A stretch of DNA of 34,110 bases, from positions 1 through 34,110 of the forward strand of contig JAUNGI010000030.1 of the NCBI GenBank assembly GCA_030524525.1. The letters run 5' to 3'. Below, in pieces: positions 11,187 to 30,439 of the stretch. Position 1 is the first letter of the stretch; each line of letters starts with the position of its first letter. This stretch comes from Lachnospiraceae bacterium (GTDB taxonomy: Bacteria > Bacillota > Clostridia > Lachnospirales > Lachnospiraceae). The position numbers were made by a program, and so were the translations under genes. Under the pieces are notes generated by a model. That model was not told where the DNA came from. It saw only the letters and a program-made list of their open reading frames with translations, and did no database searches.

Positions 11187-11214
11187 AATTACCTCACCCA
11201 GCGGAGCAAATTTA

Positions 11215-11230
11215 TTTGCGAAGACGCAAA
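11215..11230 (-). promoter_or_regulatory. leader hairpin upstream of the proline-rich protein gene
   Basis: TTTGCG and CGCAAA form a perfect 6-bp stem with a 4-base loop in the 5' leader, about 20 bases before the ribosome binding site. Role unknown. It has no T run. Confidence 0.3.
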
Positions 11231-11253
11231 CCCGCGCTCCGTATTTGGAGTTT

Positions 11254-11282
11254 AGTGTACCACAAACGCCCGAATGAAACAA
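11254..11282 (-). promoter_or_regulatory. promoter of the truA-to-dusB operon
   Basis: On the - strand TTGTTT (-35) and TACACT (-10) are 17 bases apart, about 65 bases before the ATG at 11186. The boxes are imperfect, but they lie in the only intergenic gap at the head of the operon, just after the previous operon's terminator. Confidence 0.5.
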
Positions 11283-11311
11283 GTAAAAAGGCGGAATATC
11301 TTTTCCAAATA

Positions 11312-11350
11312 AAAAACACACCGCTCCACTCAGGACAACGGTGTGTTTTT
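11312..11350 (-). terminator. terminator of the rhamnose/GH operon
   Basis: Arms 11312-11323 and 11339-11350 form a perfect 12-bp stem (AAAAACACACCG with CGGTGTGTTTTT) with a 15-base loop. On the - strand a T-rich tail follows, about 100 bases after the stop of the last operon gene. Confidence 0.85.
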
Positions 11351-11445
11351 CGACCAAATTTCCCGCCGAAAGGCGATGCGCTCCCGGCTTTCTCCGCGAA
11401 GAATTTCGCCGTACGACCACCATAGCACGAGAGCCGTCCGTTCCC

Positions 11446-12861
11446 TCACTCCACCTTCGCCGGAGCCTCGTACCGGATTCGGAACTGCGGCGGTTTTCTC
11501 AGTTCCGCATAGGAATTAAAATTCCAGTCCGCCCTTCCGTCGTCGTGATTTTCCCCGTCCGCCGGAGGCGCGAAGAGCTTTACCGAAACCGTCTGCCCGC
11601 CCTCAAGACGACGCTTATAAAAAGCGGGCATCAGGTCGATGGTGGCGACCTTGGGGGATTTATAAAACCACCGCCCGTTCATTTCGATCATCAGTCCGAT
11701 CGGGTCGTCAACGGTGATCTCGCAGAATTCGGGGTTCCGCTCAAACGCAACGGAAATTTCCACTCCCTCCGCATCCTCGGAGCCGCCCCAGCGCAGGGTT
11801 ACGGGGAACGAAGCCTCCTCTCCCGAAGTCATCTGCGGCATAAAGTACGGATCAAACAGAATCTCCCTGTAATCGTCCATCAGCGGCTGTTCCACGCCCA
11901 CCGCCGGGTTGTTCGGATCCTCCAGTTCCAATCCAAGCCGCCCCCGGTCCCGGAACTGGTACATGGAAATCCCCGAAAACCACTCCGCGTGGCGATCACG
12001 GAACGCATAGGCAAAGCGCTTGACGGACTCGCCCTGCCCAAACGCCCCGGTAACGTCACCGTCCGTATTGAACTCCGCCGTCGTCATGGGCTTTTTGCCG
12101 CAGAGCGCCGTCAGCCGTTCGGCGGTTTTTTGAAAGCGGCTGTAATAATATTCTACGCCGGAATGATTGTATCTTCCGCCGTCCTTTTCGGCAATATCGT
12201 ACGGCCAGCCGAAATGCAGCGCAAGATAACAGTCCGCGGACCAAATATCCGCCGCCTTGTAAGCCTCCAAAAAGTCCCGCTCATGTTCGATTTCCGAACC
12301 GTCGTCCTTCAAAAAGCCGGCGCAGAACACGGTGCTGACATTGGGCGCTTCTTCCTTAATGATATTATGAAAGCGGACGAAAAAATCCGCAACCTCTTTA
12401 TAAGAAAAGCGCCGATTGTGCGTAAACCAGTCCCCCGCGCACTCGTGGTTGATCCGGATGCGCATCCGTCCGAACGGCTTGAGCTGCCTTGCCACTTGGC
12501 GCAAATCCCCGTCGTCCAAGGAGCAGTCAACGGTAAGCGTTAAAAGCACGTCCTGCCCGTGACGGCGGATATCCCGCATCTGCGCAAAGGGCTGGTCGTT
12601 TTCTCCGTACGGGAAATAGTCGTCGTAGGGATAATCCCACTGATAATGGATCTCCATATCCCTGCACGCCTCGCTGATCCTCTGCGGCCACTGCTTATCC
12701 TTCGGGTAAAGCGTGTACATAATATTGACGCAGCGGTGCGGTCTGCCCAGCTTATGCAAAATGTAATCCTGACAAACGTATTCGGCGCGCTCGCTGCCGT
12801 CGCCCAAGTCCAAACCGCATTTCGCGGCTCCCATATGAATTTTCCTAAACCTGCTTGTCAT
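11446..12861 (-). CDS. putative TIM-barrel glycoside hydrolase, family unassigned
   Basis: This 471-residue protein has no signal peptide. INHECAGDWF (138-147) resembles the acid/base region of clan GH-A enzymes such as GH26 (pattern HExxGxWF). TAEFNTDG (261-268) resembles a strand-7 nucleophile region. So E140 and E263, 123 residues apart, are the candidate catalytic pair (inference). The C-terminal part, from about 345, looks like a beta-sandwich. It overlaps the end of rhaD by 17 bases, and CGGAGGA 8 bases before the ATG lies inside rhaD, so translation is coupled. A second possible start is the ATG at 12834. It is the last gene before the operon terminator. A cytosolic enzyme acting on a rhamnose-containing oligosaccharide fits the context, but the substrate is unknown. 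Confidence 0.75.
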   Translation of the reverse strand: MTSRFRKIHMGAAKCGLDLGDGSERAEYVCQDYILHKLGRPHRCVNIMYTLYPKDKQWPQRISEACRDMEIHYQWDYPYDDYFPYGENDQPFAQMRDIRRHGQDVLLTLTVDCSLDDGDLRQVARQLKPFGRMRIRINHECAGDWFTHNRRFSYKEVADFFVRFHNIIKEEAPNVSTVFCAGFLKDDGSEIEHERDFLEAYKAADIWSADCYLALHFGWPYDIAEKDGGRYNHSGVEYYYSRFQKTAERLTALCGKKPMTTAEFNTDGDVTGAFGQGESVKRFAYAFRDRHAEWFSGISMYQFRDRGRLGLELEDPNNPAVGVEQPLMDDYREILFDPYFMPQMTSGEEASFPVTLRWGGSEDAEGVEISVAFERNPEFCEITVDDPIGLMIEMNGRWFYKSPKVATIDLMPAFYKRRLEGGQTVSVKLFAPPADGENHDDGRADWNFNSYAELRKPPQFRIRYEAPAKVE

Positions 12862-13681
12862 ACAAAAAATCCTCCGAAAGCGTTACGTTGAATTCCTTTG
12901 CCAGCGCGCGGAAGTTTTCCGGCTGAATCGTCTGCCGCTTTGCGCCGCCGGTCACGGACATCACCTTTATCAGGATTTCCGCCGCCTTTTCAATGGTGTG
13001 CATCAGCCCGAACGTGAGATCGAAGCTCTCCCCGGAGCAGAACAGCCCGTGATGCGCCCATACCGCCGCGTCGTATTTCCTCATCAGCCGCGAAGTGGCG
13101 ACGGCAATTTCCCGTCCTCCGGGAACCATCCACGGCACAACGCCGATCCCGTCGGGAAAGACCACCGGACATTCCGTAGCCATTTCCCAAAGCTCCCGCG
13201 TGAACACCCTGTCCTCAAGAGGAAGGAGAAACGTCAGCGCAATAATGTTTGCCGGGTGAGCGTGATAAATGACCCGATGCTTTCCGCCAGCAGCGATCAG
13301 CTTCGCCTCATGGTTCATCAGATGCGCCGGCAGCTCGCTTGTGGGTCTGCCGCCGTTTTTCAGCCCCCAGAGGATTTTATAGCTTTCGCCCTTATCGTCG
13401 AGCCGGAGGATACAGAGCGAGGCTTCGGGGTCGCTTTGCACGTTGCGGAAAAATTTCCCGCTGCCCGTAACCAAAAACGTTTCGTTGGCAAGCTGGGGTA
13501 CGCTTGCGCCCACGGCGTTCCACTCGCCGCCTTTATCGAAATCGTCCGCCATTTCCGCCGCCTCTGCGGCAGTCAAACGATAGGAGAGATTTCCGCCGTT
13601 CCGCTCGTGCCACCCCTGAAGCCAGCCGTCGTTTGCCATGGAAATAAAGCCCTTTACCGCGTTGGATTCTAAAACCTTCAT
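12845..13681 (-). CDS. rhaD: rhamnulose-1-phosphate aldolase
   Basis: It splits L-rhamnulose 1-phosphate into dihydroxyacetone phosphate and L-lactaldehyde, a zinc class II aldolase in the cytosol. The 278-residue protein shows GWHERNGGNLSYRL (about 23-36) at the phosphate site, FLVTGSGKFFRN, the zinc-ligand pair in YHAHPAN, and the third histidine in WAHHGLFCSG, in the order expected for RhaD. Length matches the E. coli enzyme (about 274). It starts 3 bases after the rhaA stop, and its 3' end overlaps the following hydrolase gene by 17 bases. Confidence 0.95.
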   Translation of the reverse strand: MKVLESNAVKGFISMANDGWLQGWHERNGGNLSYRLTAAEAAEMADDFDKGGEWNAVGASVPQLANETFLVTGSGKFFRNVQSDPEASLCILRLDDKGESYKILWGLKNGGRPTSELPAHLMNHEAKLIAAGGKHRVIYHAHPANIIALTFLLPLEDRVFTRELWEMATECPVVFPDGIGVVPWMVPGGREIAVATSRLMRKYDAAVWAHHGLFCSGESFDLTFGLMHTIEKAAEILIKVMSVTGGAKRQTIQPENFRALAKEFNVTLSEDFLYDKQV

Positions 13682-13684
13682 CGT

Positions 13685-14929
13685 CTACCGCCCTCTCTTT
13701 GCAAGTACCTCATTCTCATATCTCTTCACCTCGTCCAGCCACTGCATGCCGGTCGGCACTCCGCATCGTTCGCAGAAAACGTCCCATACGTCGCCGAACG
13801 GCATGGCTTTCAGTTCCTCCTGCAAGACCATCAGCTCGGTCATATTGCCGCCATCCTGAAGCTCCGTCAGCTTCCCGTTGGGCTGCAAAAGGGCGTAGAG
13901 CATCGCCTTCTGAACGCTTCTTACTCCCACAACCCACGCGGCGATCCGATTGATGCTCGCGTCAAAATAATCGGTTGCCGCAAACACTCGGTCAAGGGCG
14001 CCGCAGCGGACGATCTCGCGGCAGATCTCGCGCGTTTCGTCGTCAAACAGGACAACGTGATCGCTGTCCCATCTCACGGGACGGGTAATATGCAGCGCCA
14101 GCTTTTCGTTAAAAAGCAGCAGGGCGGAAATTTTATCCGAAACCACCTCGGTGGGATGATAATGACCGTTGTCCATCAGCGGCGTGATCTTGTTTTTTGC
14201 CGAGTAGCTCAGGCAGAATTCCGCGCTGCCCGTCGTGTAGGACTCCGCGCCGATGCCGAAAACCTTCGATTCCAAGGTCACATAGACCTTGCTCTTATCG
14301 TAGTCCACGGAAAGGATCTCATCGAGGCTCTCCTTAAAGCGCTTTCTCGGCAGATAGCGGCTTGCCGGAATGTCCTTGAAGCCGTCGGGGATCCAGATGT
14401 TCATAACGCAGGGGAATCCCGTTTCCGCCGCGAAATATTCGGAGATCCGGAGGCATGCCTTACAATGCTCGATCCAATACCGGCGGACGCTTTCGTCGGG
14501 ACTTGACAGGGTAAGCCCGTCCTTTACCATCGGATGCGCAAACATCGTAGGATTGAAATCCAATCCCATATGACGCTCCTTCGCAAATTCCACCCATTTT
14601 TCAAAATGCTTCGGCGCAACCTTATCCCTGCCCTCCGTATTGCCAATGGCATAGGAAGCGTGGAGATTCAATTTATGAGTCCCGCCGATCAAAGACAGCG
14701 CCCGATCGAGATCCGCCATCAGTTCTTCGGGCGTGGTCGCCCTGCCGATGTAATTTCCGGTGGTCTGAATGCCGCCGCTCAGTTCCTTGCTGCCGTCAAA
14801 GCCGATCACGTCGTCCCCCTGCCAGCAGTGAACGGAAATCGGGAATTTTGCAAGCGCGTCGATCGCCTGCTCCACGTCAACGCCGATCGCCGCATACCTT
14901 TCCTTTGCATATTCATAGCGTTCTTTCAT
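13685..14929 (-). CDS. rhaA: L-rhamnose isomerase
   Basis: It converts L-rhamnose to L-rhamnulose using divalent metal in a TIM barrel. The 414-residue protein has the family N-terminus (ISVHCWQGDDVIGF near 31-44), GTHKLNLHASYAI, FNPTMFAHPMVKDGLTLSSPD and DNGHYHPTEVVSDKISALLLF, which hold the metal and substrate ligands. Length agrees with RhaA of other bacteria (about 418). AAGGAGGG precedes the ATG at ideal spacing, 11 bases after the rhaB stop, so rhaB, rhaA and rhaD are one transcript. Confidence 0.97.
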   Translation of the reverse strand: MKERYEYAKERYAAIGVDVEQAIDALAKFPISVHCWQGDDVIGFDGSKELSGGIQTTGNYIGRATTPEELMADLDRALSLIGGTHKLNLHASYAIGNTEGRDKVAPKHFEKWVEFAKERHMGLDFNPTMFAHPMVKDGLTLSSPDESVRRYWIEHCKACLRISEYFAAETGFPCVMNIWIPDGFKDIPASRYLPRKRFKESLDEILSVDYDKSKVYVTLESKVFGIGAESYTTGSAEFCLSYSAKNKITPLMDNGHYHPTEVVSDKISALLLFNEKLALHITRPVRWDSDHVVLFDDETREICREIVRCGALDRVFAATDYFDASINRIAAWVVGVRSVQKAMLYALLQPNGKLTELQDGGNMTELMVLQEELKAMPFGDVWDVFCERCGVPTGMQWLDEVKRYENEVLAKRGR

Positions 14930-14940
14930 AGCCGCCCTCC

Positions 14941-16326
14941 TTATGAATACTTTTTTATGCCGCAGCTTTTTCCGATCGCCTCGCGCACATCGGACAGGCT
15001 CCCAAACGCGCCGTCCGCCAAAAGCTGCGCCGCCAGATTCCCGTACGCGGTCGCCTCTGCGGGCCCCGCATAAACGGTTTTGCCTGTAAATTCCGCGGTC
15101 AGCCGGTTGAGATAATCCGCTTGGGAGCCGCCGCCGAGGATGTGGATTGCCGGATAGGCTCTGCCCGTCATCCGCTCGATTTCCTCCGCCGTGTTACGAT
15201 AACAGAGCGCAAGGCTTCGATAGATCACGCGGGCAAACTCTCCCGCCGTCACGGGACTTTCCAGCCCGTGCCGCCCACAGTACGTCTCAATCGCCCCCTT
15301 CATGCTGACCGGAGCCAAAAACATTTCGTCGCCGCAGTCGATCAGCGTATCAATGCCGCTGTCCTCCGCCATCCTGCAAAGCTCCGCGAAGGAGTAACGG
15401 TCGTCCAGCTCATGCCGCAGCTGCTGGATCATCCAAAGTCCCATGATATTTTTCAGATACCGGTAACGATGGGCGTATCCGCCCTCGTTTGTAAAATTGT
15501 GCGCCGCGCTCTCTTTGGAGCAGTCGGGCGACGGTCTTTCCACGCCCATCAGCGACCACGTTCCGGAGCTTATGTAAAGGATATCGTCCCGGTTTGACGG
15601 GATGGCCATAACCGCCGACGCCGTATCGTGGGAGGCGGTCAGCACGACCTTCGTATCAAACCCGACCTCCGCCGCGATCTCCGGCTTCAACCCGCCGACC
15701 AGCGTCCCCGGCGAAAAAATCTCCGAAAAGATCGTTTCGGGCAGCCCCAGCGCTTCCATGATCTTCCAATCCCAGTCGCAGGCTTTGGCATTTACCAGTC
15801 CCGTCGTCGTAGCGTTTGTGTATTCCTGCACGGTTTTTCCGGTCAGCAGAAATACAAAATAGTCGGGAAGCATACGCATACGCTCCGCTTTCCGAAGCTG
15901 TTCGGGAAATTTTTCTTTCAGATAGGCAAGCTGATAAACCGTATTGAATTTCTGCTTCTGAATTCCCGTGGCGGCGTAAAGGCTCTCGTCGGAGAGGCAA
16001 AGCTTTACGCCGTCGGTTCGCCTGTCGCGGTAGCTTACGCTGTCCCCAACGAGCGCTCCCGAAGCGTCCGTAAGGACAAAATCCACGCCCCATGTGTCGA
16101 TCCCCATGCTGACCGGGATTTTTCCCGCGTCGCGGCATTTTTTCATTCCCGCGAGGATCTCGGAAAACAACCGCCCGACGTCCCAGCAAAGCACGCCGTC
16201 GGCGTTCTTCCTCGCGCCGTTCGGAAAACGGTGGATTTCCTCCGTAACAAGCCGCCCGACGTCCAAGTGACAGAGAATATGCCGCCCGCTGGACGCGCCG
16301 ATGTCGATCGCCAGATAATACTTCAT
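14941..16326 (-). CDS. rhaB: rhamnulokinase
   Basis: It phosphorylates L-rhamnulose with ATP at O1; FGGY sugar-kinase family. The 461-residue protein begins YYLAIDIGASSGRH (phosphate-1 loop), with GIDTWGVDFVL, RDRRTDGV, LTASHDTASAVMAIP and SSGTWSLMGVE, then ILGGGSQADYLNRLTAEFTGKTVYAGPAEATAYGNLAAQ for the adenosine site. These fit RhaB rather than xylulo- or fuculokinase, and the adjacent rhaA and rhaD agree. GAAGGAG lies just before the ATG. The 105-base gap to the upstream GH78 gene is filled by a dispersed hairpin repeat that may lower read-through. Confidence 0.96.
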   Translation of the reverse strand: MKYYLAIDIGASSGRHILCHLDVGRLVTEEIHRFPNGARKNADGVLCWDVGRLFSEILAGMKKCRDAGKIPVSMGIDTWGVDFVLTDASGALVGDSVSYRDRRTDGVKLCLSDESLYAATGIQKQKFNTVYQLAYLKEKFPEQLRKAERMRMLPDYFVFLLTGKTVQEYTNATTTGLVNAKACDWDWKIMEALGLPETIFSEIFSPGTLVGGLKPEIAAEVGFDTKVVLTASHDTASAVMAIPSNRDDILYISSGTWSLMGVERPSPDCSKESAAHNFTNEGGYAHRYRYLKNIMGLWMIQQLRHELDDRYSFAELCRMAEDSGIDTLIDCGDEMFLAPVSMKGAIETYCGRHGLESPVTAGEFARVIYRSLALCYRNTAEEIERMTGRAYPAIHILGGGSQADYLNRLTAEFTGKTVYAGPAEATAYGNLAAQLLADGAFGSLSDVREAIGKSCGIKKYS

Positions 16327-16356: not shown

Positions 16357-16453
16357 AATCCCGCGCTGCGAGATTTCCCGTCTGCGGCGGGCTGCATCGC
16401 CTGCTTCTTCCTCTCCGCCGCAATGCGTTCCTCAGCTCTGCCGCAATGCGATC
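16357..16453 (-). repeat. dispersed hairpin repeat, copy A
   Basis: On the - strand this reads GATCGCATTGCGG, then a second CGCATTGCGGCGGAGAGGAA, then GCCCGCCGCAG, GGGAA and GCGCGGGATT. Most of these blocks recur in the same order and orientation at 33995-34070. CCCGC and GCGGG arms make an imperfect hairpin followed by TTTTAT. Copy A has an extra internal CGCATTGCGG duplication that reaches into the last codons of the GH78 gene. I infer a small mobile or REP-like element. Confidence 0.65.
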
Positions 16454-19400
16454 CTCCAGCTCCCGCTGCCAACGGTCTTGGTTCCGCAGGGCAGAACCAG
16501 CTCCGCCGTCGTATTTACGGGGATCTTGCAGAAAAACGTCGCCTCCCCGTCGGCAAGCTCATAGCCCGCTTCCACCCGTCCGTAGGGCGTTTCAAAGCCG
16601 CCCGAAATTTTTCCGAACCCGCAGAAGTCGGGCTGAATGAGGAAATGCTTCCAGCCGTCCCCCTTCGGGCGGATTCCCACGGCGTATTCGTACAGCCAGC
16701 TCATAACGCTTCCCAGCGAGTAATGATTGAAGCTGTTCATCGCGTTCATTCCGCCGAAGCCGTTCTCAAGCGTATAGCTATTCCAGCGCTCCCATACGGT
16801 CGTCGCGCCCTGCGTAACCGGATAGAGCCAGCTCGGATACTGGGTCTGCGTCATCATCCGGTACGCCGCCCCGCCAAAGCCGCCCTCGCTCAGCATCGGG
16901 TTTACCAGTCCCGTCCCGAAAAATCCGGTGGTGATTTTATAGCCCGATTCCTCCGCCTTCTCGGCAAGGCGCTTCCGCGCCTTCACGATATTTTCCCCTG
17001 TGAACATTTCATAGGCAAGCCCGATGGCATAGCCGCCCATCGTATCGCTTCTGCCGCCGTCCAAGTTCCGGGTAACGCCCTCCGCCGAATCAAAAAAGGT
17101 TCGGTTAAAATACGCCCTTGCCTCCTCCAGCTTCTTTTCATATTTCGCCCTGTCTTCCGCGTAGCCGAGAAGCTTGGCAAAGCGCGCCATAAGCTGACAG
17201 TCTCTTCCGTAAAAGGCGTTCCATACAAGGTGGCTGTCCGTCGCTTCGGGAGCGAGCCAGTCGTCGATCGGCCCCAGATACGCGCTTCCCGGCAGGTCTT
17301 TTCCCGCGAGGTAGTCCATATATTTGCTCATTGCCGCGTAATTGTCGGAGACGATTTTCTTATCCCCGTAAAACCGGTAAAGGTCGTTTACAAGAAACGC
17401 CATTGCGCTGCCGTAGGTAATTCCGCCGAAGCCGCCGCCCACCGGCGCCACCTCCGGAAGGTTTCCGTCCGCCTCCTGACCGTCGCGAAGGGCTTCCAGA
17501 TAGCGCAGATAAAACGCCTTCCCTTCCGCGTTTCGAATGGCGGTCTTGCAGAAAACGTGCGCGTCCCCCGCCCAGCCCATACGCTCGTTTCGCTGCGGAC
17601 AGTCGGTGGGGATGCTGATAAAATTGCAGAGCTGACTGTACGCCACGTTCTTTATAAAGCGGTTGAGCAGCGGATCGTCGGTCTCCACCGTTCCCGTAAT
17701 TTCCGGCAGACTCGAAAGCTGAACCCCTCTGACCTCGCCAAGGGAGGGGGGATTTTCCACGCCCGAGATCTCAATATAGCGGAAGCCGTGGAACGTAAAC
17801 CTCGGAGAATAGGCCTCTCCCGCCTCTCCGCGCAGAATATATTTGTCCGTGGAGGAAGCGTCGCGCAGGTTTGCAGTCAGCAGCCGTCCGCTCAGCTCTC
17901 CGTATTCCTCCAGATCGGGGTAAAGCATTTCCGCATAGCGGATCACCGCCGTTTCCCCCGCCCTGCCGTGAAAGTTGATTTTGCATACGCCTGCAATTTC
18001 CTGCCCCAGATCGTAAATATACACACCCTCGGCAGGTGAGGTCCTGCCGACCGCCGGAAGCTCCTCCACCGCCCTGACCGGACAGTGGGATTTCCCCGTA
18101 AGGACGGGCGCCGTCCGGTTCAGTTCCGGGTATTTTCGGAAAAATCCGGGCAGCGAATCGTATTCCGGGATCACGTCGGGAACGATCACCGCGGGCTTTT
18201 TGATTTTGTCGCTTGTAAAGCCCGGCGTTGAAAAGCTTTCGTATTCCGCAAGCTGCCTTCCGTCCAGCCGCTCTCCTTGGAAAAAGCCGCCGAATTTGTA
18301 AGCGCCCTCGCCGTAATATTCCCATTCCTCGGCATTGGTAACAAACGTATCCGACGAACCGTCCTCGTAGGTCAGCACGAGCTTCGCCATCACGCTTTCC
18401 CGGTCGCCCCAGAGATTATAGCAGCCAAGCACAAAGGTCTGGGAACCGCTCCACCAGCCCGACGCAAGCGTAAAGCCCACGCCGTTTTCCCCTTCGTTGA
18501 TCAGCCCGGTAACATCGTAGGTCTGATAATACAGGTGCTTGTCAAACTGGCTCGCGCCGGGAGCAAAATATTCCTCGGAAACGAGCCTGCCGTTCATGCG
18601 GCACTCATAGATTCCCCGCGCGGTCGCATAGAGCCGCGCCTTTTTCAGCTTCCCCGAACACCAAAAGCTTCTGCGCAGCATCGGCAGCGCATGACCGTCG
18701 GGGGCGCGCTTGACGACCGTGGGCGTTTCCGCGAAAAGCTCCACGCCGTTCTCGGTATCGCAGGAAAAAAACATGCGGGACGGCTCCCGGAGAAAGCTGC
18801 ATCGAATTCCGTCAAAATGCGCCTTGGTCCCGGCATCCGCAAAATAGCCCAGCGTTCCGAGGCGCGGAAAGGTGGTAACGTCGTTGTCGCCCAGCGGATT
18901 GAGCTGCACGCGCTTCACAAACGCGCCGTTTACATGGAGGTTCACGCAGTTGCCCGTAACGTCGAGCCGGAGCGCATAGGCGCTTCCCCCGGCTTCGCCC
19001 GAAAGCACGATCCGTTCCAGCGGAACGTCCTTTTTATCCTCCGCCGCATATCCCACGCGCCGGATTTCCAGAGCCGCTTCGGACGAGCTTTGTTCCACGC
19101 AGACCGAAATATAATTTTCGCCCTCGACCCGCAGTTCGTTCCGCTCCCGGCTTTCCAGACGGGGATCGTCCGCGCCGAACACGATGCCCGCGCGCCCGTT
19201 TCCGTCGATCGCGACCTCGCTTTCCAAACGGAAAACCCCAAGCGCTTCGGAACAGACATAATATTCCGGCGCGCCGATAAACTCCGCCCCGTCCCATGCG
19301 GAAAGATCGCCGCAGAGCAGCGCCGTTTCAAATTTTGCTTCCAGCTCCGCACGCTCCTCCGCCTGATTTTTCACGACAAGCCTTGCAAAGTATTCCGTGC

Positions 19401-19635
19401 AGGGCGAAAGCGCTCCGCCCGCATACGCGATCCCCTGAGAAGCGTCGGAAACCACCTCCCCGCTGTCCCACAGGTCCCTCATGCCGGATTCGCTGCCGAC
19501 CGTGATCCGGTAGCTTTTCTGCATGACATTCTTTGCGTCGGAAACCAGTTTCCAAGAAAATTCCGGGGTTTCGTTGTCTATGACGGCTCCGTCTTTTAAC
19601 CCGTCTGCTGTAAATTCGGAAATTTGAAAGCTCAT
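16432..19635 (-). CDS. GH78 alpha-L-rhamnosidase
   Basis: It removes terminal L-rhamnose with inversion. The 1067-residue protein has an N-terminal fibronectin-like domain (about 1-105), a lectin-like beta-sandwich insert (about 115-285), the rhamnosidase N-domain (about 310-480), another beta domain, and the (alpha/alpha)6 catalytic barrel (about 640-970) before a C-terminal beta domain. TDCPQRNERMGWAGDAH supplies the conserved D678, E684 and D691. VWERW gives the probable general base E949, and NHY the rhamnose-contacting H971. No signal peptide is seen, so it should be cytosolic. GGAGAG precedes the ATG. It follows the GH5 gene by 51 bases. Its last codons overlap a dispersed repeat. Confidence 0.95.
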   Translation of the reverse strand: MSFQISEFTADGLKDGAVIDNETPEFSWKLVSDAKNVMQKSYRITVGSESGMRDLWDSGEVVSDASQGIAYAGGALSPCTEYFARLVVKNQAEERAELEAKFETALLCGDLSAWDGAEFIGAPEYYVCSEALGVFRLESEVAIDGNGRAGIVFGADDPRLESRERNELRVEGENYISVCVEQSSSEAALEIRRVGYAAEDKKDVPLERIVLSGEAGGSAYALRLDVTGNCVNLHVNGAFVKRVQLNPLGDNDVTTFPRLGTLGYFADAGTKAHFDGIRCSFLREPSRMFFSCDTENGVELFAETPTVVKRAPDGHALPMLRRSFWCSGKLKKARLYATARGIYECRMNGRLVSEEYFAPGASQFDKHLYYQTYDVTGLINEGENGVGFTLASGWWSGSQTFVLGCYNLWGDRESVMAKLVLTYEDGSSDTFVTNAEEWEYYGEGAYKFGGFFQGERLDGRQLAEYESFSTPGFTSDKIKKPAVIVPDVIPEYDSLPGFFRKYPELNRTAPVLTGKSHCPVRAVEELPAVGRTSPAEGVYIYDLGQEIAGVCKINFHGRAGETAVIRYAEMLYPDLEEYGELSGRLLTANLRDASSTDKYILRGEAGEAYSPRFTFHGFRYIEISGVENPPSLGEVRGVQLSSLPEITGTVETDDPLLNRFIKNVAYSQLCNFISIPTDCPQRNERMGWAGDAHVFCKTAIRNAEGKAFYLRYLEALRDGQEADGNLPEVAPVGGGFGGITYGSAMAFLVNDLYRFYGDKKIVSDNYAAMSKYMDYLAGKDLPGSAYLGPIDDWLAPEATDSHLVWNAFYGRDCQLMARFAKLLGYAEDRAKYEKKLEEARAYFNRTFFDSAEGVTRNLDGGRSDTMGGYAIGLAYEMFTGENIVKARKRLAEKAEESGYKITTGFFGTGLVNPMLSEGGFGGAAYRMMTQTQYPSWLYPVTQGATTVWERWNSYTLENGFGGMNAMNSFNHYSLGSVMSWLYEYAVGIRPKGDGWKHFLIQPDFCGFGKISGGFETPYGRVEAGYELADGEATFFCKIPVNTTAELVLPCGTKTVGSGSWRIALRQS

Positions 19636-19686
19636 ATCCTGCTCTCCTCTCAGCGTTCTGAATCTTATGCCTGTGAAAACTCTTTT

Positions 19687-20904
19687 TCAGCGCCCCTCCG
19701 CAGTCAAAACCAAGGCTTCGATCACCGGCTCGCAGTACGGCTTTGCGGCAAGGCGGTCAAAAATCTTCATGGAACCGCCGTCGTCCCACCAAAAGCAGGT
19801 GATTCCGTACTTCTTTGCCGCCGCAACAAAGTAGGCGGCGTATTTCGCCCGCTCCGCCGTGTATTCGTCCGTTTCCGTATGATCCTGCGCTCCGAACTCT
19901 CCTATGATCATCGGAAGCTTCTGTCCCGTAACGATCTCGCGGTTCAGGCGTTCAAAGATCGTGTCGATCACCGCCTCGTCCGCGCTGTCCCAAACGGTAT
20001 CCGTACCGCCGCAGAAGCCGGACGGGTCGTAGATATGGACCTCGGCGATCAGATGCTCCTTTTCCGGATCGGTTGGAGCCGCAAAGCCGGTCACCTGCGA
20101 ATTCGCCGACGAAGCGCCGTAGGTCAGCACAATAATATTCCGCTCCGCGTTGTTTCCACCGGAGCTTCGCACCGTGTCTACGAACAGCTGATTCAGCCTG
20201 TTTACCGTATCGTAGCTGTCCTGATCGGAGCCGCCCCAGTTGGAATTTCTGTCAAGGATCTCGTTCATGCTTTCAAACAGCAGCCTTTGATCGTAATCCT
20301 TGAAATAATCGGCGATCTGCTCCCAGAGGCATACATATTTCTCGCTCATGCCGTTTTCGTACATCTCGCTGTCGGCGCGGAGCCACGCCTCGTCCCCGCC
20401 GCCCGTATCGTGATGCACGTTGACGATGCAGTACATATCCTCCGCCAGAACGTAATCGACGACCTCCCTTACGCGGGCAAGCCACGCTTCGTCCACCCTG
20501 CCGTTTTCGTCCATCTTTTCCAGCCATGTTACGGGAACTCTTACGGCGTTGAAGCCGCTTTCCTTCACCGCATGGATCAGCTCCCGGGTAACGACGGGAT
20601 TGCCCCATGCGGTTTCAAAATTCCTCGGACTGCTTTTACCGATCCACGCCCCCGTACAGTCGAGCGAATTTCCCAGATTCCAGCCGATTTTCATATTGGC
20701 GACGCACTCCGACGCCGTTTCGCTCCGGAACTCCGCAGGCGACGGCTCCGCCGGGGAAGGTGTCAACGGTTCCGCTGCGGCTGTCAAGGTCGCTGCGGGC
20801 GTTTCGGACGCCCCTTCCTTCTGCGGCTGATTGCCGCAAGCGGAAAACAGCATTGCGGCGGCGGTCAAAACACAAAATAATGCTTCGGTTTTCCTTCTGC
20901 TCAT
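19687..20904 (-). CDS. GH5-type glycanase lipoprotein
   Basis: An endo-acting beta-glycanase (cellulase, xyloglucanase or mannanase type; specificity not readable). The 405-residue protein begins with a lipoprotein signal: positive n-region, hydrophobic core, lipobox FSAC with lipidated C23. A short Ala/Pro/Ser/Glu linker (about 30-60) precedes the GH5 barrel with IGWNLGNSLD (73-82), VRVPVTW (121-127), HHD (164-166), MNE with acid/base E215, and IGEFG with nucleophile E336. It is the only exported enzyme of the cluster and would cut polymer at the cell surface. The ATG at 20904 has GGGGAGGA at good spacing; the longer frame to 20997 would cover the promoter. First gene of the rhamnose operon. 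Confidence 0.93.
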   Translation of the reverse strand: MSRRKTEALFCVLTAAAMLFSACGNQPQKEGASETPAATLTAAAEPLTPSPAEPSPAEFRSETASECVANMKIGWNLGNSLDCTGAWIGKSSPRNFETAWGNPVVTRELIHAVKESGFNAVRVPVTWLEKMDENGRVDEAWLARVREVVDYVLAEDMYCIVNVHHDTGGGDEAWLRADSEMYENGMSEKYVCLWEQIADYFKDYDQRLLFESMNEILDRNSNWGGSDQDSYDTVNRLNQLFVDTVRSSGGNNAERNIIVLTYGASSANSQVTGFAAPTDPEKEHLIAEVHIYDPSGFCGGTDTVWDSADEAVIDTIFERLNREIVTGQKLPMIIGEFGAQDHTETDEYTAERAKYAAYFVAAAKKYGITCFWWDDGGSMKIFDRLAAKPYCEPVIEALVLTAEGR

Positions 20905-20939
20905 ATACGTTCCTCCCCGAATTCTTTTTTGTTGCCTAT

Positions 20940-20968
20940 AGCATAAAAGAACTTTCCCCCTCCGACAA
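20940..20968 (-). promoter_or_regulatory. promoter of the GH5-GH78-rhaBAD operon
   Basis: On the - strand TTGTCG (-35, 20968-20963) and TATGCT (-10, 20945-20940) have a 17-base spacer. Both boxes match 4 of 6, a modest promoter consistent with a need for an activator. Confidence 0.6.
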
Positions 20969-20991
20969 GTGTTAAAATTATCCCATCTGTC
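20967..20991 (-). promoter_or_regulatory. putative AraC-regulator operator at the GH5 promoter
   Basis: GACAGATGG, then AATTTTAACACTT on the - strand, directly abuts and slightly overlaps the -35 box. The same two blocks (GACAGATGG ... AATTNNAACACTT) recur at 24320-24348 before the GH3 gene, at almost the same distance from its -10 box. This is the position expected for an AraC-family activator. The regulator gene begins within 100 bases. Binding is inferred, not shown. Confidence 0.6.
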
Positions 20992-21014
20992 TATCAATTT
21001 TTAACATCAGGCGG

Positions 21015-21043
21015 TTGTATTTTTTCGCCCGTCCGGTTATGAT
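21015..21043 (+). promoter_or_regulatory. promoter of the AraC-type regulator
   Basis: TTGTAT (21015-21020) and TATGAT (21038-21043) are 17 bases apart. Transcription would start near 21050, which supports the ATG at 21084 over the in-frame one at 21015. Confidence 0.55.
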
Positions 21044-21083
21044 GGAAGCAGGCTACGCAGAGAAAGGCGGGGAGAAACAAAAA

Positions 21084-22160
21084 ATGGATCTGAACGAAAT
21101 CTATGACGAGCTTGAGCGCTACAATGACGACGAGCTGTTCTATAAGGAGCTGTTTTTGAGCCGCAGGCAGCCGGAAAAATACGCGGAGCTGATGCGGTCG
21201 CTGAACATTGACGAGGTCAACAAACGCGGGCTGATCATTCCCGAATTGCAGCAGCAGGGGTACCGTCCGGCACGTTTTGGAGACGATTTTCTCGATACAA
21301 AAGAACACAAAAACGTGTATCTGTCAAAGCATAACAGATACACGCCTCCCTATGAGCATGACCACGATTTTTTTGAAATTGTATACATTCTTTCGGGGGA
21401 GTGCGAGAACCGCATTTTCGGCAGAACCGACGTCCTCCGGCAGGGAGACCTGTGCCTTCTGTCCCCCTCGGTCAAGCATTCCATCTGGACGGAGGACGGA
21501 CTGCTCCTCAACATCCTGATCCGCCGCAGCACCATCCGGAATATTCTATCGAATATCTTCATAAGAAACACAATCATCTCCGATTTTTTCGGCAGCAGCA
21601 TTTATCTGAGCAATTTCGCGACCTGTCTAATGTTCCGCACAAACGGCGACGACGACATCCGCCGCCAGATCCTCGAAATGTACGGCGAACAGCTCCGTCC
21701 GGACGAATACTCCGAAAACATCATAAGCAGTATGCTGATGATCTTCTTTAACAAGCTCGTACGGGGCTACAAGGACACCGCGGTATATCCCCAGACCGTA
21801 AAGGAGCAAAACGAATCCGTAGCCAAAATTTTAGGAATGATCCTCTCCGATTACGCCGGCATAACCCTTTCGGACCTTGCGGACAGCTTGGGCTATTCCA
21901 CCGTTTACTGCTCAAAATATGTAAAGAAGCTTACGGGCTGTACGTTTTCGGAGCTTCTGAAAAAAGTCCGCCTGCAAAAAGCGGCGGACCTCCTTCAAAA
22001 TACCTCTATGAGCATCAGCGATATCAGCGCCGCCTGCGGATATGAAAATCCGGAGAATTTCAACCGCGCGTTCCGGCAGCGCTACCACACGGCGCCGTCC
22101 GGATTCCGCGAACGTCACTCCAGCCGGAAATCCGCGCCGTTGTCGGTAAGGCTGTCGTGA
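21084..22160 (+). CDS. AraC-family transcriptional regulator
   Basis: A sugar-sensing DNA-binding protein, 358 residues. An N-terminal helical part (1-60) is followed by a cupin-like sensor domain (about 75-150, with YEHDHDFFEIVYILSGE at 90-106 and a GDLCLLSPSVKHSI strand). The C-terminal double helix-turn-helix domain (about 255-345) has LSDLADSLGYSTVYCSKYVKKLTG and the AraC signature ISDISAACGYENPENFNRAFRQRYHTAPSGFR. It is transcribed away from the GH5/rhamnose operon and is the obvious candidate activator of that operon and of the GH3 gene. The inducer is unknown; rhamnose or an oligosaccharide is a guess. Its last 46 bases overlap the convergent GH3 gene, and no terminator lies between them. 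Confidence 0.93.
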   Translation: MDLNEIYDELERYNDDELFYKELFLSRRQPEKYAELMRSLNIDEVNKRGLIIPELQQQGYRPARFGDDFLDTKEHKNVYLSKHNRYTPPYEHDHDFFEIVYILSGECENRIFGRTDVLRQGDLCLLSPSVKHSIWTEDGLLLNILIRRSTIRNILSNIFIRNTIISDFFGSSIYLSNFATCLMFRTNGDDDIRRQILEMYGEQLRPDEYSENIISSMLMIFFNKLVRGYKDTAVYPQTVKEQNESVAKILGMILSDYAGITLSDLADSLGYSTVYCSKYVKKLTGCTFSELLKKVRLQKAADLLQNTSMSISDISAACGYENPENFNRAFRQRYHTAPSGFRERHSSRKSAPLSVRLS

Positions 22161-24244
22161 CCGATCCAGAGGGTAAACGCGCCCGCCTCGCTGACAAAAT
22201 TCATATCCCGATCGTAAAACCGCAGCATTTCCTCGGTGATCTCAAAGCAGACCTCCGTTTCCTCTCCTGCGGCAAGCTCTATCTTCTGTAAGCCCTTCAG
22301 CTCGCGCAGAGGTCTTACCACGCTTCCGGTAATATCGCGGATATAAAGCTGCACGGCCTCCTTTACGGGAAGGCTTCCGCAGTTTTTCACGCGGACGCTT
22401 GCCGTAAGCTTCCCGTCCCGCGTCAGCACGCTGCTGTCGAGCCGAACCGGCGAATAGGCGACTTCGCCGTAGGACAGCCCGTAACCGAACGGGTAGAGCG
22501 GAACGTTCGGCGCATCCATATAGTTCGAAACGAAGGGACAGAAGCCCTGCATATCGGGCTTTGGTCTGCCGGTGGAAAACGCGCCGTAGGAAAGCGGCAG
22601 CTGTCCCGTGCAGTACGGCATGCTCATCGAAAGCCTGCCCGACGGATTGACCCTTCCGAACAGAATATCGGCAAGCGCATAGCTGCCGCAGGAGCCGGGA
22701 AGCCATGCCTCCACCAGCGCATTGGTTTTTTCGGCAAGCTCCGGAACCGCAAGCGGCCTTCCGCCGAAAAGCACCGTCACAATATTTTGATTGACTCCAT
22801 AAACCGCCTCGAACAGCGCCGCGTGCGCCTTGGAAAGCGAAATATCCGCCTTGCTGAAGGACTCGCCGCTCTGGTTCTGGTTCTCTCCGAGAGCCAACAC
22901 GACCACGTCCGCCTTCCCCGCCGCCGCAAGCATCTCCCCGGCGATCTCGTCGGAAGCAAAAAATTCCGTATCGGCGTTTGGATAAAGCTCCTGCACCGCC
23001 TCCCTGAGCGTGACCGTCCGGGACTCGTCCACAAACAGCGCCCAAGAGCCGGTGATTTCCTTATCGTCCGCAAGCGCGCCGACCACGACGATTTTCTGCT
23101 TTTCATCCAGCGGAAGCGCGCCGTCGTTTTTCAGCAGGACCGTCGTCTCCTCCGCCGCCCTCCGGGACAGCTCCCGATGCTCCGGGCAGAAATGAAGGCT
23201 CCGCTCGTCCTCCTCGGAAGCGTCCTTATACGGATTTTCAAAAAGTCCCAGCCGGTTTTTCAAAACAAGAACCCGCATGACCGCCTCATCCAGCAGGCTT
23301 TCGGAAAGCTCGCCATCCTCGATCAGCGATTCGAGGTGGTGCAAATAGCACTCGCTCATCATATCAATATCGCAGCCCGCTTCCATCGCCTTCTTTGCGG
23401 CGTCTCTGAGGCTGGCGGAGCTGCCGTGCGTCACGGATTCGCTGACGGCGGCGTAATCGGAAATCACCACGCCCTCAAAGCCCATATCCTTCCGCAGGAT
23501 CTCCCGCAGAAGCCGCCGGTTGGTCGTACAGGGCTGCCGGTCGATCGTGTTGAACGCCGTCATAACCATGCTCACCCCGGCTTTTACCGCCGCCCGGTAG
23601 GACACGAGATAGTCCTCGAAAAGCGTGTGCTCGGATATTTCGGTAACGTTGTAATCCCGTCCCGACTGCACCGCGCCGTACGCCGCAAAATGCTTTGCGC
23701 AGGCGGCTACTTTGCCCTTTTCGCCGTAGTCCCCGCCCTGAAAGCCGGAGACCATACTTTCCGCCATTCTCGCATTCAGCCACGGATCCTCTCCCGTGGA
23801 CTCCATGCATCTTCCCCAGCGGCTGTCTCTTACAAGGTCCACCATCGGCGAAAAGGTAACGTGAACGCCCGAAGCTGCCGCCTCCTTTGCGGCAGCGGAC
23901 GCGATCTGCTCCGCAAGCGCGGGATTGAAGGACGAGCCGATGGCAATCGGCACGGGAAAGCCGGTTTTATAGCCATGGATCACGTCCGCCATAAACAGCG
24001 CGGGGATCCGGTGCGGCTGCTTTTCCATCATCCGGTTCTGCAAGTCCTTCAAATGCGCCGCGCCGTGCTCGCCCAGCACGCTGCCCGTCCGATAGGGCTG
24101 GTCGGCGGTCATGTGAAAATCCACCACGGGTCCCGTGTAAACGTCAATGTTTCCGAAAAAGCCGCCGTGCAGCTGAACCAGCTGCTCCACCTTTTCCGAA
24201 CGCGACATATCGTTCAAAAGTTCGTTAAGCTCTGCTTGTGTCAT
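22115..24244 (-). CDS. GH3 beta-glycosidase
   Basis: It hydrolyses terminal beta-linked sugars with retention; beta-glucosidase or beta-xylosidase activity cannot be told apart here. The 709-residue protein has the TIM barrel with MVDLVRDSRWGRCMESTGEDP (about 134-154), KHFAAYG (184-190) and VISDYAAV, whose D263 is the nucleophile. It then has the alpha/beta sandwich (about 360-560, with LPLDEKQKIVVVG) and a fibronectin-like C-terminal domain (about 600-705). No signal peptide, hence cytosolic. An AAAGGGG lies upstream of the ATG. Its promoter carries the same operator-like motif as the GH5 operon, so both are likely one regulon. Confidence 0.94.
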   Translation of the reverse strand: MTQAELNELLNDMSRSEKVEQLVQLHGGFFGNIDVYTGPVVDFHMTADQPYRTGSVLGEHGAAHLKDLQNRMMEKQPHRIPALFMADVIHGYKTGFPVPIAIGSSFNPALAEQIASAAAKEAAASGVHVTFSPMVDLVRDSRWGRCMESTGEDPWLNARMAESMVSGFQGGDYGEKGKVAACAKHFAAYGAVQSGRDYNVTEISEHTLFEDYLVSYRAAVKAGVSMVMTAFNTIDRQPCTTNRRLLREILRKDMGFEGVVISDYAAVSESVTHGSSASLRDAAKKAMEAGCDIDMMSECYLHHLESLIEDGELSESLLDEAVMRVLVLKNRLGLFENPYKDASEEDERSLHFCPEHRELSRRAAEETTVLLKNDGALPLDEKQKIVVVGALADDKEITGSWALFVDESRTVTLREAVQELYPNADTEFFASDEIAGEMLAAAGKADVVVLALGENQNQSGESFSKADISLSKAHAALFEAVYGVNQNIVTVLFGGRPLAVPELAEKTNALVEAWLPGSCGSYALADILFGRVNPSGRLSMSMPYCTGQLPLSYGAFSTGRPKPDMQGFCPFVSNYMDAPNVPLYPFGYGLSYGEVAYSPVRLDSSVLTRDGKLTASVRVKNCGSLPVKEAVQLYIRDITGSVVRPLRELKGLQKIELAAGEETEVCFEITEEMLRFYDRDMNFVSEAGAFTLWIGHDSLTDNGADFRLE

Positions 24245-24293
24245 GGTGTATTACCCCTTTCCGTTCCTGATTTTGGTTCCTTGCCTTTCCTTT

Positions 24294-24322
24294 ATTATAA
24301 GCGGAACGCGTCTGCAAGGAAG
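24294..24322 (-). promoter_or_regulatory. promoter of the GH3 gene
   Basis: A perfect TATAAT (-10, 24299-24294 on the - strand) is paired at 17 bases with a poor -35 (CTTCCT). The bad -35 overlapped by the shared motif is typical of activator-dependent promoters. Confidence 0.55.
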
Positions 24323-24348
24323 TGTTCCAATTAACCGATCCATCTGTC
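24320..24348 (-). promoter_or_regulatory. putative AraC-regulator operator at the GH3 promoter
   Basis: On the - strand GACAGATGG and AATTGGAACACTT are separated by 7 bases (3 in the GH5 copy). The proximal block ends 20 bases before the -10 box, against 21 in the GH5 promoter. It lies in the short gap after the DUF3795 gene. Confidence 0.6.
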
Positions 24349-24356
24349 CGATTTTG

Positions 24357-24641
24357 TCATTGCGCCCCGGTCGCTCCGGAGCCCGCGCCGCTCTGCTTCG
24401 CCTCCCGCTTCCACCGCAGCCACTCCTTGTCGAGCACCGTACAGCGCCGCTTTTCCAAAATCGTATCGCAGGGAAAGTCCCCGCACATTCCGCAGGCGGC
24501 GATCTTCCGCTCCAGAACGCAGTCGCGGGTAAAGCAGTCTCCCGGCCCGTTCGCCTCCAAGCATCCGGCGCAGCTGCCGTTCAGATAGGTGGGGCAGCTC
24601 CCGCAGTAAAAGCCGCATTTGCCCAAAAGCCGTTCTTCCAT
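24357..24641 (-). CDS. DUF3795 cysteine-rich protein
   Basis: This 94-residue protein carries a dense cysteine pattern (CGFYCGSCPTYLNGSCAGC at about 9-27, then DCFTRDC, CGMCGDFPC), characteristic of DUF3795 proteins, small putative zinc- or metal-binding proteins common in anaerobes. The function is unknown. AAAGGAG precedes the ATG, and a perfect consensus promoter lies about 45 bases upstream. It is transcribed in the same direction as GH3 but ends just before the GH3 operator and promoter, so the two are probably separate units. Confidence 0.88.
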   Translation of the reverse strand: MEERLLGKCGFYCGSCPTYLNGSCAGCLEANGPGDCFTRDCVLERKIAACGMCGDFPCDTILEKRRCTVLDKEWLRWKREAKQSGAGSGATGAQ

Positions 24642-24683
24642 CTTGGTTTCTCCTTTGCTTTTCCGACTTCTCCGTTGAATTTC

Positions 24684-24712
24684 ATTATATGGTATCGTTT
24701 TCAGGGTGTCAA
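24684..24712 (-). promoter_or_regulatory. perfect sigma-A promoter of the DUF3795 gene
   Basis: TTGACA (24712-24707) and TATAAT (24689-24684) on the - strand with a 17-base spacer match the consensus at every position, so strong constitutive expression is expected. Confidence 0.85.
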
Positions 24713-24726
24713 TGCAGAGTGGGACG

Positions 24727-24862
24727 GGGATATGCCCCGCCCCTTGCGCGTAAGCGCTTCAAGGCTGCGATTGCAGAGGTCAAAGCAGAAAATGCGGCGG
24801 CAAATATGGAAAGACCAGGAGAACTTCCAGATAGACAGACAGACGAAGCAATGATAAAATGA
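24727..24862 (+). pseudogene. possible remnant of a coding region
   Basis: A + strand frame without a start codon ends in TGA at 24862 and reads like protein, including KRFKAAIAEVKAENAAANME then RPGELPDRQTDEAMIK. Its codons (AGA, GGA, CCA, ATA) differ from the GC-rich neighbours and match the AT-richer XRE gene next to it. I read it as the tail of a lost gene, perhaps from a mobile element, but I do not recognise the parent family. It could be chance. Confidence 0.3.
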
Positions 24863-26708: not shown

Positions 26709-27345
26709 AAATCTGATGAGCCAAGCCGATTCCCTGAGCGCCACGTCCCCGGCGCAGATCGTCGCCTGCCTGACCTTTACGGTTCTGTGCGCGGCGGTCA
26801 TCTATCTGGTCTATCGCTTCTTTTATCGGGGCGCCTGCTACAGCGAGAACTTCGCGGTTCTGCTTGTTATGGTGACCTTGGTCACCGCCATGATCATCCT
26901 GACGATCAGCTCCAGCGTGGCTCTTTCCCTCGGAACCATCGGCGCGCTCAGCATCATCCGCTTCCGCTCCGCGATCAAAGACCCTCTCGACGTGGGCTTC
27001 CTGTTCTGGGCGGTGGTTGCGGGACTGACGACCGGCGCGGGCATGGTGCCCTTCGCCCTGATCGGCTCTCTCTTTCTGGCGTTCGTCTATGTGGCAATGA
27101 CGCTTCTGCGCACATCCGGCGGCACCTATCTGCTGATCGTAAGCTACGAGGACGCCGCCGCCGAAGCCGTGGACGCGGCGCTTTCCGGCATTTCCGGCAA
27201 ATTAAAGAACAAAACGCGCTACAAGGACTCGACAGAGCTGACGTTACAAGTTAAAATAAAGAAAAAGAACACCGCTTTTATGGAGGAGCTGCACGGAATC
27301 GAAGGCGTGAACAACTGTGTGCTTGTAGAGTTTACCGGAGAATAA
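26683..27345 (+). CDS. DUF4956 membrane protein
   Basis: This 220-residue protein has about four transmembrane segments between 25 and 145, including the conserved GTIGALSIIRFRSAIKDPLD loop (about 87-106) that marks DUF4956. A soluble ferredoxin-like C-terminal domain (about 147-220, TYLLIVSYEDAAAEAV to VLVEFTGE) follows. The function is unknown. The basic conserved loop could handle anionic substrate or polyphosphate from the partner VTC protein (inference). It overlaps the VTC gene by 26 bases and sits 34 bases before the CotH gene, so the three are co-expressed. Confidence 0.93.
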   Translation: MNDYITEIKNLMSQADSLSATSPAQIVACLTFTVLCAAVIYLVYRFFYRGACYSENFAVLLVMVTLVTAMIILTISSSVALSLGTIGALSIIRFRSAIKDPLDVGFLFWAVVAGLTTGAGMVPFALIGSLFLAFVYVAMTLLRTSGGTYLLIVSYEDAAAEAVDAALSGISGKLKNKTRYKDSTELTLQVKIKKKNTAFMEELHGIEGVNNCVLVEFTGE

Positions 27346-27379
27346 ACGACGGCTCTTGGGCGGAAGAAACGGAGAAGGT

Positions 27380-29791: not shown

Positions 29792-29817
29792 CCGAGCCTC
29801 CGCCGACCGCTTCGCAG

Positions 29818-29856
29818 AAAACCCCCGAACCATTTTCAGAATGATCCGGGGGTTTT
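29818..29856 (+). terminator. terminator after the CotH gene
   Basis: AAAACCCCCG (29818-29827) pairs with CGGGGGTTTT (29847-29856), with extra pairing of CATT and AATG inside the loop. The T run is short (4). It lies 27 bases after the CotH stop and before the next gene. Confidence 0.75.
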
Positions 29857-29902
29857 GCATAAAAAACAAACTTTGACGCATGCGCTTGCAAAGGAGCAGT
29901 TT

Positions 29903-30439
29903 ATGGAACAACTCGAATTGTACATACCCAAGTTCGAAGATCTTTGGTTCTATCAGAAAATGATGTCCGACCCGGAAACCATGTCCTACAATGCGGGTTG
30001 GGATGTTTCCTATCCGGGCTATCACCGTGACACCGGCTGCATCGACTATCCGGATGAGGTTATGGCAGATTGGTATTCCGGCTGGGTGGGTCATGAGCCG
30101 GAACGCTTCTATGCCTATATCAAGCGCAGCCTTGACGGTGCGTGGATCGGTGATGTGAACTTCCACTACAACCCGGAAAAGGACTGGTGGGACATGGGCA
30201 TCGTGATTTATGCGCCCTATCGTGGAAAGGGCTATGCCGTTCCCGCGCTGAAAAAGCTGCTTGACCACGCGTTCCGCGACTGGGGCATTTCCAGAATCCA
30301 TAACGATTTTGAGGTCGCCCGGAACGAGGTCGCCGCATGGAAAGCACACCGCAAAGCGGGGTTCAAGGAACTGGGCATCGAGAACGGGTTTCTTCAAATG
30401 ATGATTACGAAAGAGGGCTACTTCGCGAATAATTCTTAA
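29903..30439 (+). CDS. GNAT-family N-acetyltransferase
   Basis: This 178-residue protein transfers an acetyl group from acetyl-CoA to an unknown acceptor. The acetyl-CoA-binding motif A is seen as DMGIVIYAPYRGKGYAVPAL (R-G-K-G-Y loop), followed by a helix and the typical late segment RNEVAAWKAHRKAGFKELG. The N-terminal half with many aromatic residues is the variable acceptor side. The fold resembles RimJ/RimL-like or aminoglycoside-type GNATs, and the substrate cannot be told. GGAG precedes the ATG at 29903; the open frame extends to 29855 but starts inside the terminator. The convergent ATPase gene follows; 30440-30605 shows no clear gene or good terminator. Confidence 0.88.
   Translation: MEQLELYIPKFEDLWFYQKMMSDPETMSYNAGWDVSYPGYHRDTGCIDYPDEVMADWYSGWVGHEPERFYAYIKRSLDGAWIGDVNFHYNPEKDWWDMGIVIYAPYRGKGYAVPALKKLLDHAFRDWGISRIHNDFEVARNEVAAWKAHRKAGFKELGIENGFLQMMITKEGYFANNS

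Follow-up and report, generated by a model that had tools for sequence, protein, structure and literature searches.

Two rigid 41-bp elements as candidate operators of an AraC-family rhamnoside regulator in a Lachnospiraceae bacterium

Do two promoters that lie 3.4 kb apart on the same strand of a Lachnospiraceae contig answer to one regulator, and in what form is its binding site written? The question arises from the window studied here, a stretch of 34,110 nucleotides (contig JAUNGI010000030.1 of assembly GCA_030524525.1; C60 among the 62 contigs of the 2.65-Mb draft genome), in which similar sequences, operators A and B, stand upstream of a GH5-led rhamnose operon and of a GH3 gene, with an AraC-family gene in between. 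Each proved to be one rigid element of ~41 bp. We consider it likely that they are two operators of the intervening AraC-family rhamnoside regulator, which would activate transcription at the −35 edge of the promoters of the GH3 gene and of the GH5-GH78-rhaBAD-type operon. The elements, promoters and regulator are as follows.

20966..21006, minus strand: operator A, 41 bp with a rigid 29-bp core at 20967-20995, upstream of the GH5 operon; top A2-profile site in its own genome (36.4 bits)
24319..24359, minus strand: operator B, 41 bp with a rigid core at 24320-24348, upstream of the GH3 gene; second profile match (32.6 bits)
20940..20945, minus strand: predicted −10 box TATGCT of the GH5 operon promoter, read from the sequence, 21 bases from the core
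20963..20968, minus strand: predicted −35 box TTGTCG (4/6) of the GH5 operon promoter, spacer 17 bp
24294..24299, minus strand: predicted −10 box TATAAT of the GH3 promoter, read from the sequence, 20 bases from the core
24317..24322, minus strand: −35 position CTTCCT (2/6, poor) of the GH3 promoter, read from the sequence
21084..22160, plus strand: AraC-family regulator, 358 residues, with an AraC_binding/cupin sensor domain and an HTH_18 DNA-binding domain (Pfam)

The initial annotation described the shared sequence as two blocks, GACAGATGG and AATTNNAACACTT, set at variable spacing near the −35 boxes and bound by the AraC protein encoded between them. Many of its particulars were confirmed. 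The only exact copies of GACAGATGG in the window lie at 20983-20991 and 24340-24348, and those of AATTNNAACACTT at 20967-20979 and 24320-24332, all on the minus strand. The gaps between blocks are 3 bases at A and 7 at B, the proximal block is 21 and 20 bases from TATGCT and TATAAT, respectively, and Pfam places the AraC-family gene between the two promoters. When the block pair was searched for with gaps of 1-10 bases, it occurred twice in the 2.65 Mb of the genome and its reversed-pattern control not at all; single blocks with one or two mismatches occurred at chance level (6 found against 5.91 expected, and 4 against 6.10). The described overlap with the −35 box is real at A, where two bases of TTGTCG are covered, and at B is one of position only, given the 2/6 match of CTTCCT.

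It is the variable spacing that failed. GACAGATGG, the 9-mer common to A and B, is 4 bases out of register between them. Aligned gap-free on AATTNNAACACTT, A and B form one rigid element with the 29-bp core GAYAGAYRGATSGGWTAATTKKAACACTT. The best ungapped alignment sets GATAGACAGATGG of A opposite GACAGATGGATCG of B, and the apparent 4-base change in block spacing is therefore a register artefact. Between the two upstream regions (179 and 156 bp), the best ungapped 29-mer has 22/29 identities, a value that none of 1000 dinucleotide shuffles equalled, and terminates in AACACTT at both sites; the best 40-mer has 28/40, with one shuffle in 1000 as good. Once TGWYAAAA upstream of the core is counted in, the element extends to ~41 bp, TGWYAAAA..GAYAG forming its distal part and G.WTAATTKKAACACTT its proximal part, which ends next to the −35 position or within it. 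The conserved unit thus has fixed spacing and reaches further upstream than the two blocks. A matrix trained without B recovered it at rank 1 in the window (p 4e-10 per position). From A and B alone, sliding blocks and a rigid element are both open, and the relatives of the regulator decide between them.

Scanning GTDB genome contigs with the AraC protein gave one close relative, L047 (69% identity), from a Lachnospiraceae metagenome-assembled genome of water deer caecum. In a family sample of 299 genomes, AraC matches at E up to 1e-40 were present in 33; behind the window's own gene, G241 (48%), G148 (39%) and G110 (39%) scored best. The loci compared are those of L047 (11.5 kb), G241 (L048, 18.7 kb) and G148 (L049, 18 kb, where araC is again divergent from its neighbour). 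At each locus the best match to the 29-bp A/B consensus falls between araC and its divergent neighbour, with 22/29 in L047, 22/29 in G241 and 20/29 in G148 and runners-up at 19, 19 and 18; no match was found in the araC gaps of L006 (G110), L007 or L011. A matrix built from A and B only ranked the intergenic site first in L047, L048 and L049. The resulting five founder sites align gap-free over 41 columns, 16 of them invariant, and with leave-one-out matrices every one ranks first in its own locus (p per position 4e-10 to 1e-15; L048, 5e-10). The matches expected by chance to the 29-bp core number 0.006, 0.055 and 0.79 in L047, L048 and L049, and the L049 core by itself is not significant without its location; for the 41-bp form, whose length was picked after viewing all five sites, the corresponding values are 2e-6, 5e-4 and 1e-3. 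The core ends 20-21 bp from a predicted −10 in five of five sites (TATGCT, TATAAT, TATAAT, TATGAT and TATAAT, all predictions).

The relatives differ in what the site precedes. In L047 the target is a GH5 gene whose product is 50% identical to the window GH5, so the site is conserved upstream of a GH5 orthologue, as the initial annotation had expected of a genuine regulon. The L048 site stands before genes for a binding protein and two permeases (an ABC transporter) and a GH78-type gene, and the L049 site before a GH78-like gene. The site thus travels with the regulator, and the enzyme set around rhamnoside use varies from locus to locus. As a separate observation, L048 (1-18690; G241:C110) encodes two AraC paralogues of the subfamily, 48% and 34% identical to the window protein, with the operator only at the former; this 18-kb cluster also has two sugar transporters, two GH78-type genes and a GH3.

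The element is rare. A 41-bp profile of the five sites, run at E up to 10, found only A and B in their own genome, among the 150 of 221 candidates scored. The shared operator and small regulon put forward by the initial annotation are supported by the exactly two genomic sites and by a site beside AraC orthologues; two variably spaced blocks are not. Across 32 genomes with AraC homologues, 19 have some profile match at E up to 1, the only strong ones being the AraC-linked sites of G148 and G241 (next, 18.7 bits). Of 397 family genomes, 20 match at E up to 0.05; scores above 23 bits occur only in G000, G148 and G241, which trained the profile. Weak matches elsewhere (G190, G029, G184 and others; 17-22 bits) were followed up at 18 loci, only one of which, L061 of G114, has an AraC homologue; the rest were taken as chance. 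The L047 genome yields a single site at E up to 5, so operator B has so far been seen in one genome. The next best AraC match in the window's own genome is 25% identical; by that measure, a second member of this AraC subfamily is absent. AraC (E up to 1e-20) and a GH3 of the window's kind (E up to 1e-100) are both absent from the 21 other congeners, which makes the cluster accessory; in the genus of G148, the one other genome also lacks AraC. Operator A has no match in plasmids. An RNA element was rejected, as there is no Rfam match over 19500-24800 and the operators lie upstream of the −10.

The genes downstream of the two operators are these.

19687..20904, minus strand: GH5 enzyme, first operon gene after operator A (Pfam Cellulase)
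16432..19635, minus strand: GH78 alpha-L-rhamnosidase (Pfam)
14941..16326, minus strand: rhamnulokinase, RhaB type (TIGR02627, 493.8 bits, just under the cut-off of 527.95)
13685..14929, minus strand: L-rhamnose isomerase, RhaA (TIGR01748, exceeds the cut-off)
12845..13681, minus strand: rhamnulose-1-phosphate aldolase, RhaD type (NF002963, exceeds the cut-off)
22115..24244, minus strand: GH3 beta-glycosidase, alone after operator B (Pfam GH3 N, C and Fn3)

Gene order and strand suggest that the isomerase, kinase and aldolase share one transcript with GH5. The GH5 signal looks lipoprotein-like by eye, and the closest solved chains are endoglucanases and xyloglucanases; the nearest NCBIfam model of the GH3 enzyme is BglX (602.5 bits, under the cut-off of 666). 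In the regulator, HTH_18 (80 bits), HTH_AraC (45.9) and AraC_binding (40.2) all exceed their Pfam cut-offs, whereas RhaS, the nearest NCBIfam model (equivalog NF010028), scores 71.6 bits, far under its cut-off of 288. The 3′ ends of araC and the GH3 gene overlap convergently by 46 bases (22115-22160), coding on both strands, and an 18-pair hairpin followed by a T-rich stretch lies antisense within the araC reading frame (21309-21349, minus strand). Further along the strand of the rhamnose operon is a gene of GH115, an alpha-glucuronidase family (7118-9760), preceded by two proteins with no Pfam or NCBIfam match (10536-11423 and 11446-12861) and a tRNA pseudouridine synthase. Two large proteins of 580 and 428 residues at 27332-30397 (minus strand) have no Pfam or PADLOC match.

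How might such an element act? We propose it as a binding site of the regulator, which would probably sit there as a dimer with one subunit on each part; the two conserved parts lie about two helical turns apart, which suggests a dimer on two half-sites. The cupin domain would sense rhamnose or a rhamnoside, and the bound protein would assist RNA polymerase where the −35 is weak (TTGTCG and CTTCCT), jointly switching on the GH5-GH78-kinase-isomerase-aldolase operon and the GH3 glycosidase. Operator A sits in the gap common to the GH5 operon and the divergent araC and therefore faces two genes, and the regulator may also act on its own promoter. AraC/XylS proteins practising class II activation act at sites overlapping the −35 box. 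The window elements resemble such sites, judging by sequence, in that their proximal end adjoins the −35 position or runs into it, at a fixed distance from the −10. A sigma-70 promoter scan passed neither the GH5-operon nor the GH3 promoter through its filter, flagging instead TTAAAA-16-GATAAT within operator A; the failure fits a need for an activator but also a wrongly called promoter.

The same geometry could serve a repressor that blocks the −35 until an inducer frees it, or a site used mainly for araC autoregulation. The element does touch the −35 position, and A lies between divergent promoters. However, poor −35 boxes in promoters that both fail the scan point to activation, as does the fixed 20-21 bp to the −10, members of the AraC family are mostly activators, and B has no adjoining araC promoter to regulate. 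We regard a repressive or chiefly autoregulatory role as unlikely.

It is less probable still that the element is bound by a regulator encoded elsewhere, with the AraC gene a bystander. In favour of that reading, binding by AraC is here deduced from sequence, and the site stands upstream of the enzyme genes themselves. Against this, the site accompanies the AraC gene in three other genomes with different targets, and weaker forms of it accompany more distant AraC homologues.

Two independent boxes, GACAGATGG and AATTNNAACACTT, held at flexible spacing by two proteins or by flexible subunits, have in their favour that both occur exactly at A and B with different gaps and that the pair is found twice in the genome, against none for the control. 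The relatives retain the rigid register, however, and GACAGATGG is not conserved in the sites of L047, L048 or L049. When two blocks were scored at a gap of 7, equal to the rigid register, the true sites of these three relatives ranked 3rd, 1st and 8th; at a gap of 3 they fell to 37th, 17th and 76th, and on this ranking a variable-gap motif was rejected. The trimmed two-block pattern occurs once each in G239, G250 and G086 among the 299 genomes, where it fits the rigid motif poorly. Flexible boxes are thus very improbable. Least credible of all is that A and B are alike through a recent duplication of promoter DNA during cluster assembly with no shared regulator: they do lie close together on one strand of an accessory cluster, but the likeness is confined to the element and its −10 distance, the flanks being dissimilar, and conservation of the same columns extends to three other genera. 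Duplication may nevertheless be the origin of B, and such an origin does not compete with a function.

Several observations weigh against two operators of the AraC protein as we describe them. Six of nine AraC loci (L047-L055, 11-19 kb), at 32-42% identity, have no clear site; one of the six is G110, which is as near to the window protein as G148 (39% identical). Internal symmetry over the five sites is not significant, whether as a direct repeat (p 0.15) or an inverted repeat (p 0.78), and conservation autocorrelation at offsets 21/22 gives p 0.12. With 16 sites, an offset of 22 reaches p 0.02 taken alone and 0.48 over all offsets, and an offset of 21 gives p 0.90. There are five founder sites in all, two of them from a single genome, and the own-genome profile search scored 150 of its 221 first-look candidates. 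The GH3 branch is seen in this genome only, the relatives' genomes having no second target, and binding, inducer and effects on expression are predictions.

Traces of the element extend beyond the founders. A tree of 31 AraC homologues groups the window, L047 and G241 proteins in one clade (support 99/95); the G148 protein comes next, at an unresolved fork, and the G114 protein is placed apart from these on a long branch. The araC gap of G114 also contains a site, though a weaker one, 21 bp before TATACT, and genes for an ABC transporter, a GH3 and a GH31 enzyme come after it. The first recognition helix contains CSxY in 5/5 site-bearing AraC proteins, G114 included, and in 1/26 others, a pattern spotted afterwards. 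We scored the gaps preceding 27 more AraC homologues with the founder matrix, taking 300 column-shuffled matrices as the control. The median best score was 2.0, against a shuffled mean of −2.4 and maximum of 0.3; 11 of the 27 gaps scored negatively. A −10-like hexamer lay 19-22 bp past the best match in 12/27 gaps (shuffled mean 4.0, maximum 9), and a 5/6 −10 match at that spacing in 7/27 (mean 1.2, maximum 5). After refinement, which alternated between 15 and 16 passing regions until it reached its iteration limit, 11/27 non-founders passed a 1% control threshold (16/32 with founders). Partial matches supplied estimated araC starts for L021, L025, L030 and L032, and in L025 and L032 the extended frames look faulty. 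This one-per-genus sample points to an operator architecture common to part or all of the AraC subfamily. A bolder reading is that the whole Lachnospiraceae subfamily, divergent from glycan uptake and glycosidase genes, uses one ~41-bp operator, TnTTAAAAA..gtCA.ttAAA.tGaTtAA.tttAACAaTTg, 20-21 bp before the target −10, with target-specific letters (GAYAG here, GTCA in relatives) tracking the recognition helices; this we offer tentatively, as possible but somewhat short of probable. In the AraC gap of L032 (G107; ~2590-2680), AAAAATGATAAG is followed by ATTAATAAG about one helical turn beyond the usual place, with TATAAT near its usual distance, possibly a stretched form of the operator.

Rodionova et al. 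2013 (PMC3870299) describe AraC-family rhamnose regulators (RhaR) of Bacillales, Bacteroides and Enterococcus whose motifs are specific to each lineage and built as direct repeats with a 21-bp period; for E. coli RhaR/RhaS they give two 17-bp half-sites in inverted repeat. The window operator joins these AraC-type rhamnose regulons, already published for other lineages with operators that are direct repeats, as a further case of the type. As in the regulons described there, the regulator lies beside L-rhamnose genes, the regulon is small and was found through promoter comparison, and the operator is lineage-specific with about two helical turns between its parts, a likeness of description only. 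Unlike their 21-bp-period direct repeats, the repeat in the window element is not significant. The lineages named in the figure legends consulted do not include Lachnospiraceae, and none of the literature titles surveyed concerned this Lachnospiraceae operator. The likeness to E. coli RhaS/RhaR at rhaBAD and rhaSR lies in an AraC-family protein tied to the rhamnose pathway, RhaS being the nearest model albeit under its cut-off; the window case differs in having no significant inverted repeat and in the shortfall in bits against that model.

These findings provide an uncharacterised AraC regulator of a gut-type Lachnospiraceae with a candidate operator and a proposed regulon of two promoters, which would tie GH5, GH78 and GH3 enzymes to the rhamnose pathway. 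The corrected register decides which probe or mutation is informative. The weaker, similarly placed sites near distant AraC homologues suggest that targets may be predicted across the subfamily and, if one operator does serve it throughout, the regulons of many uncharacterised gut glycan regulators would be readable from sequence.

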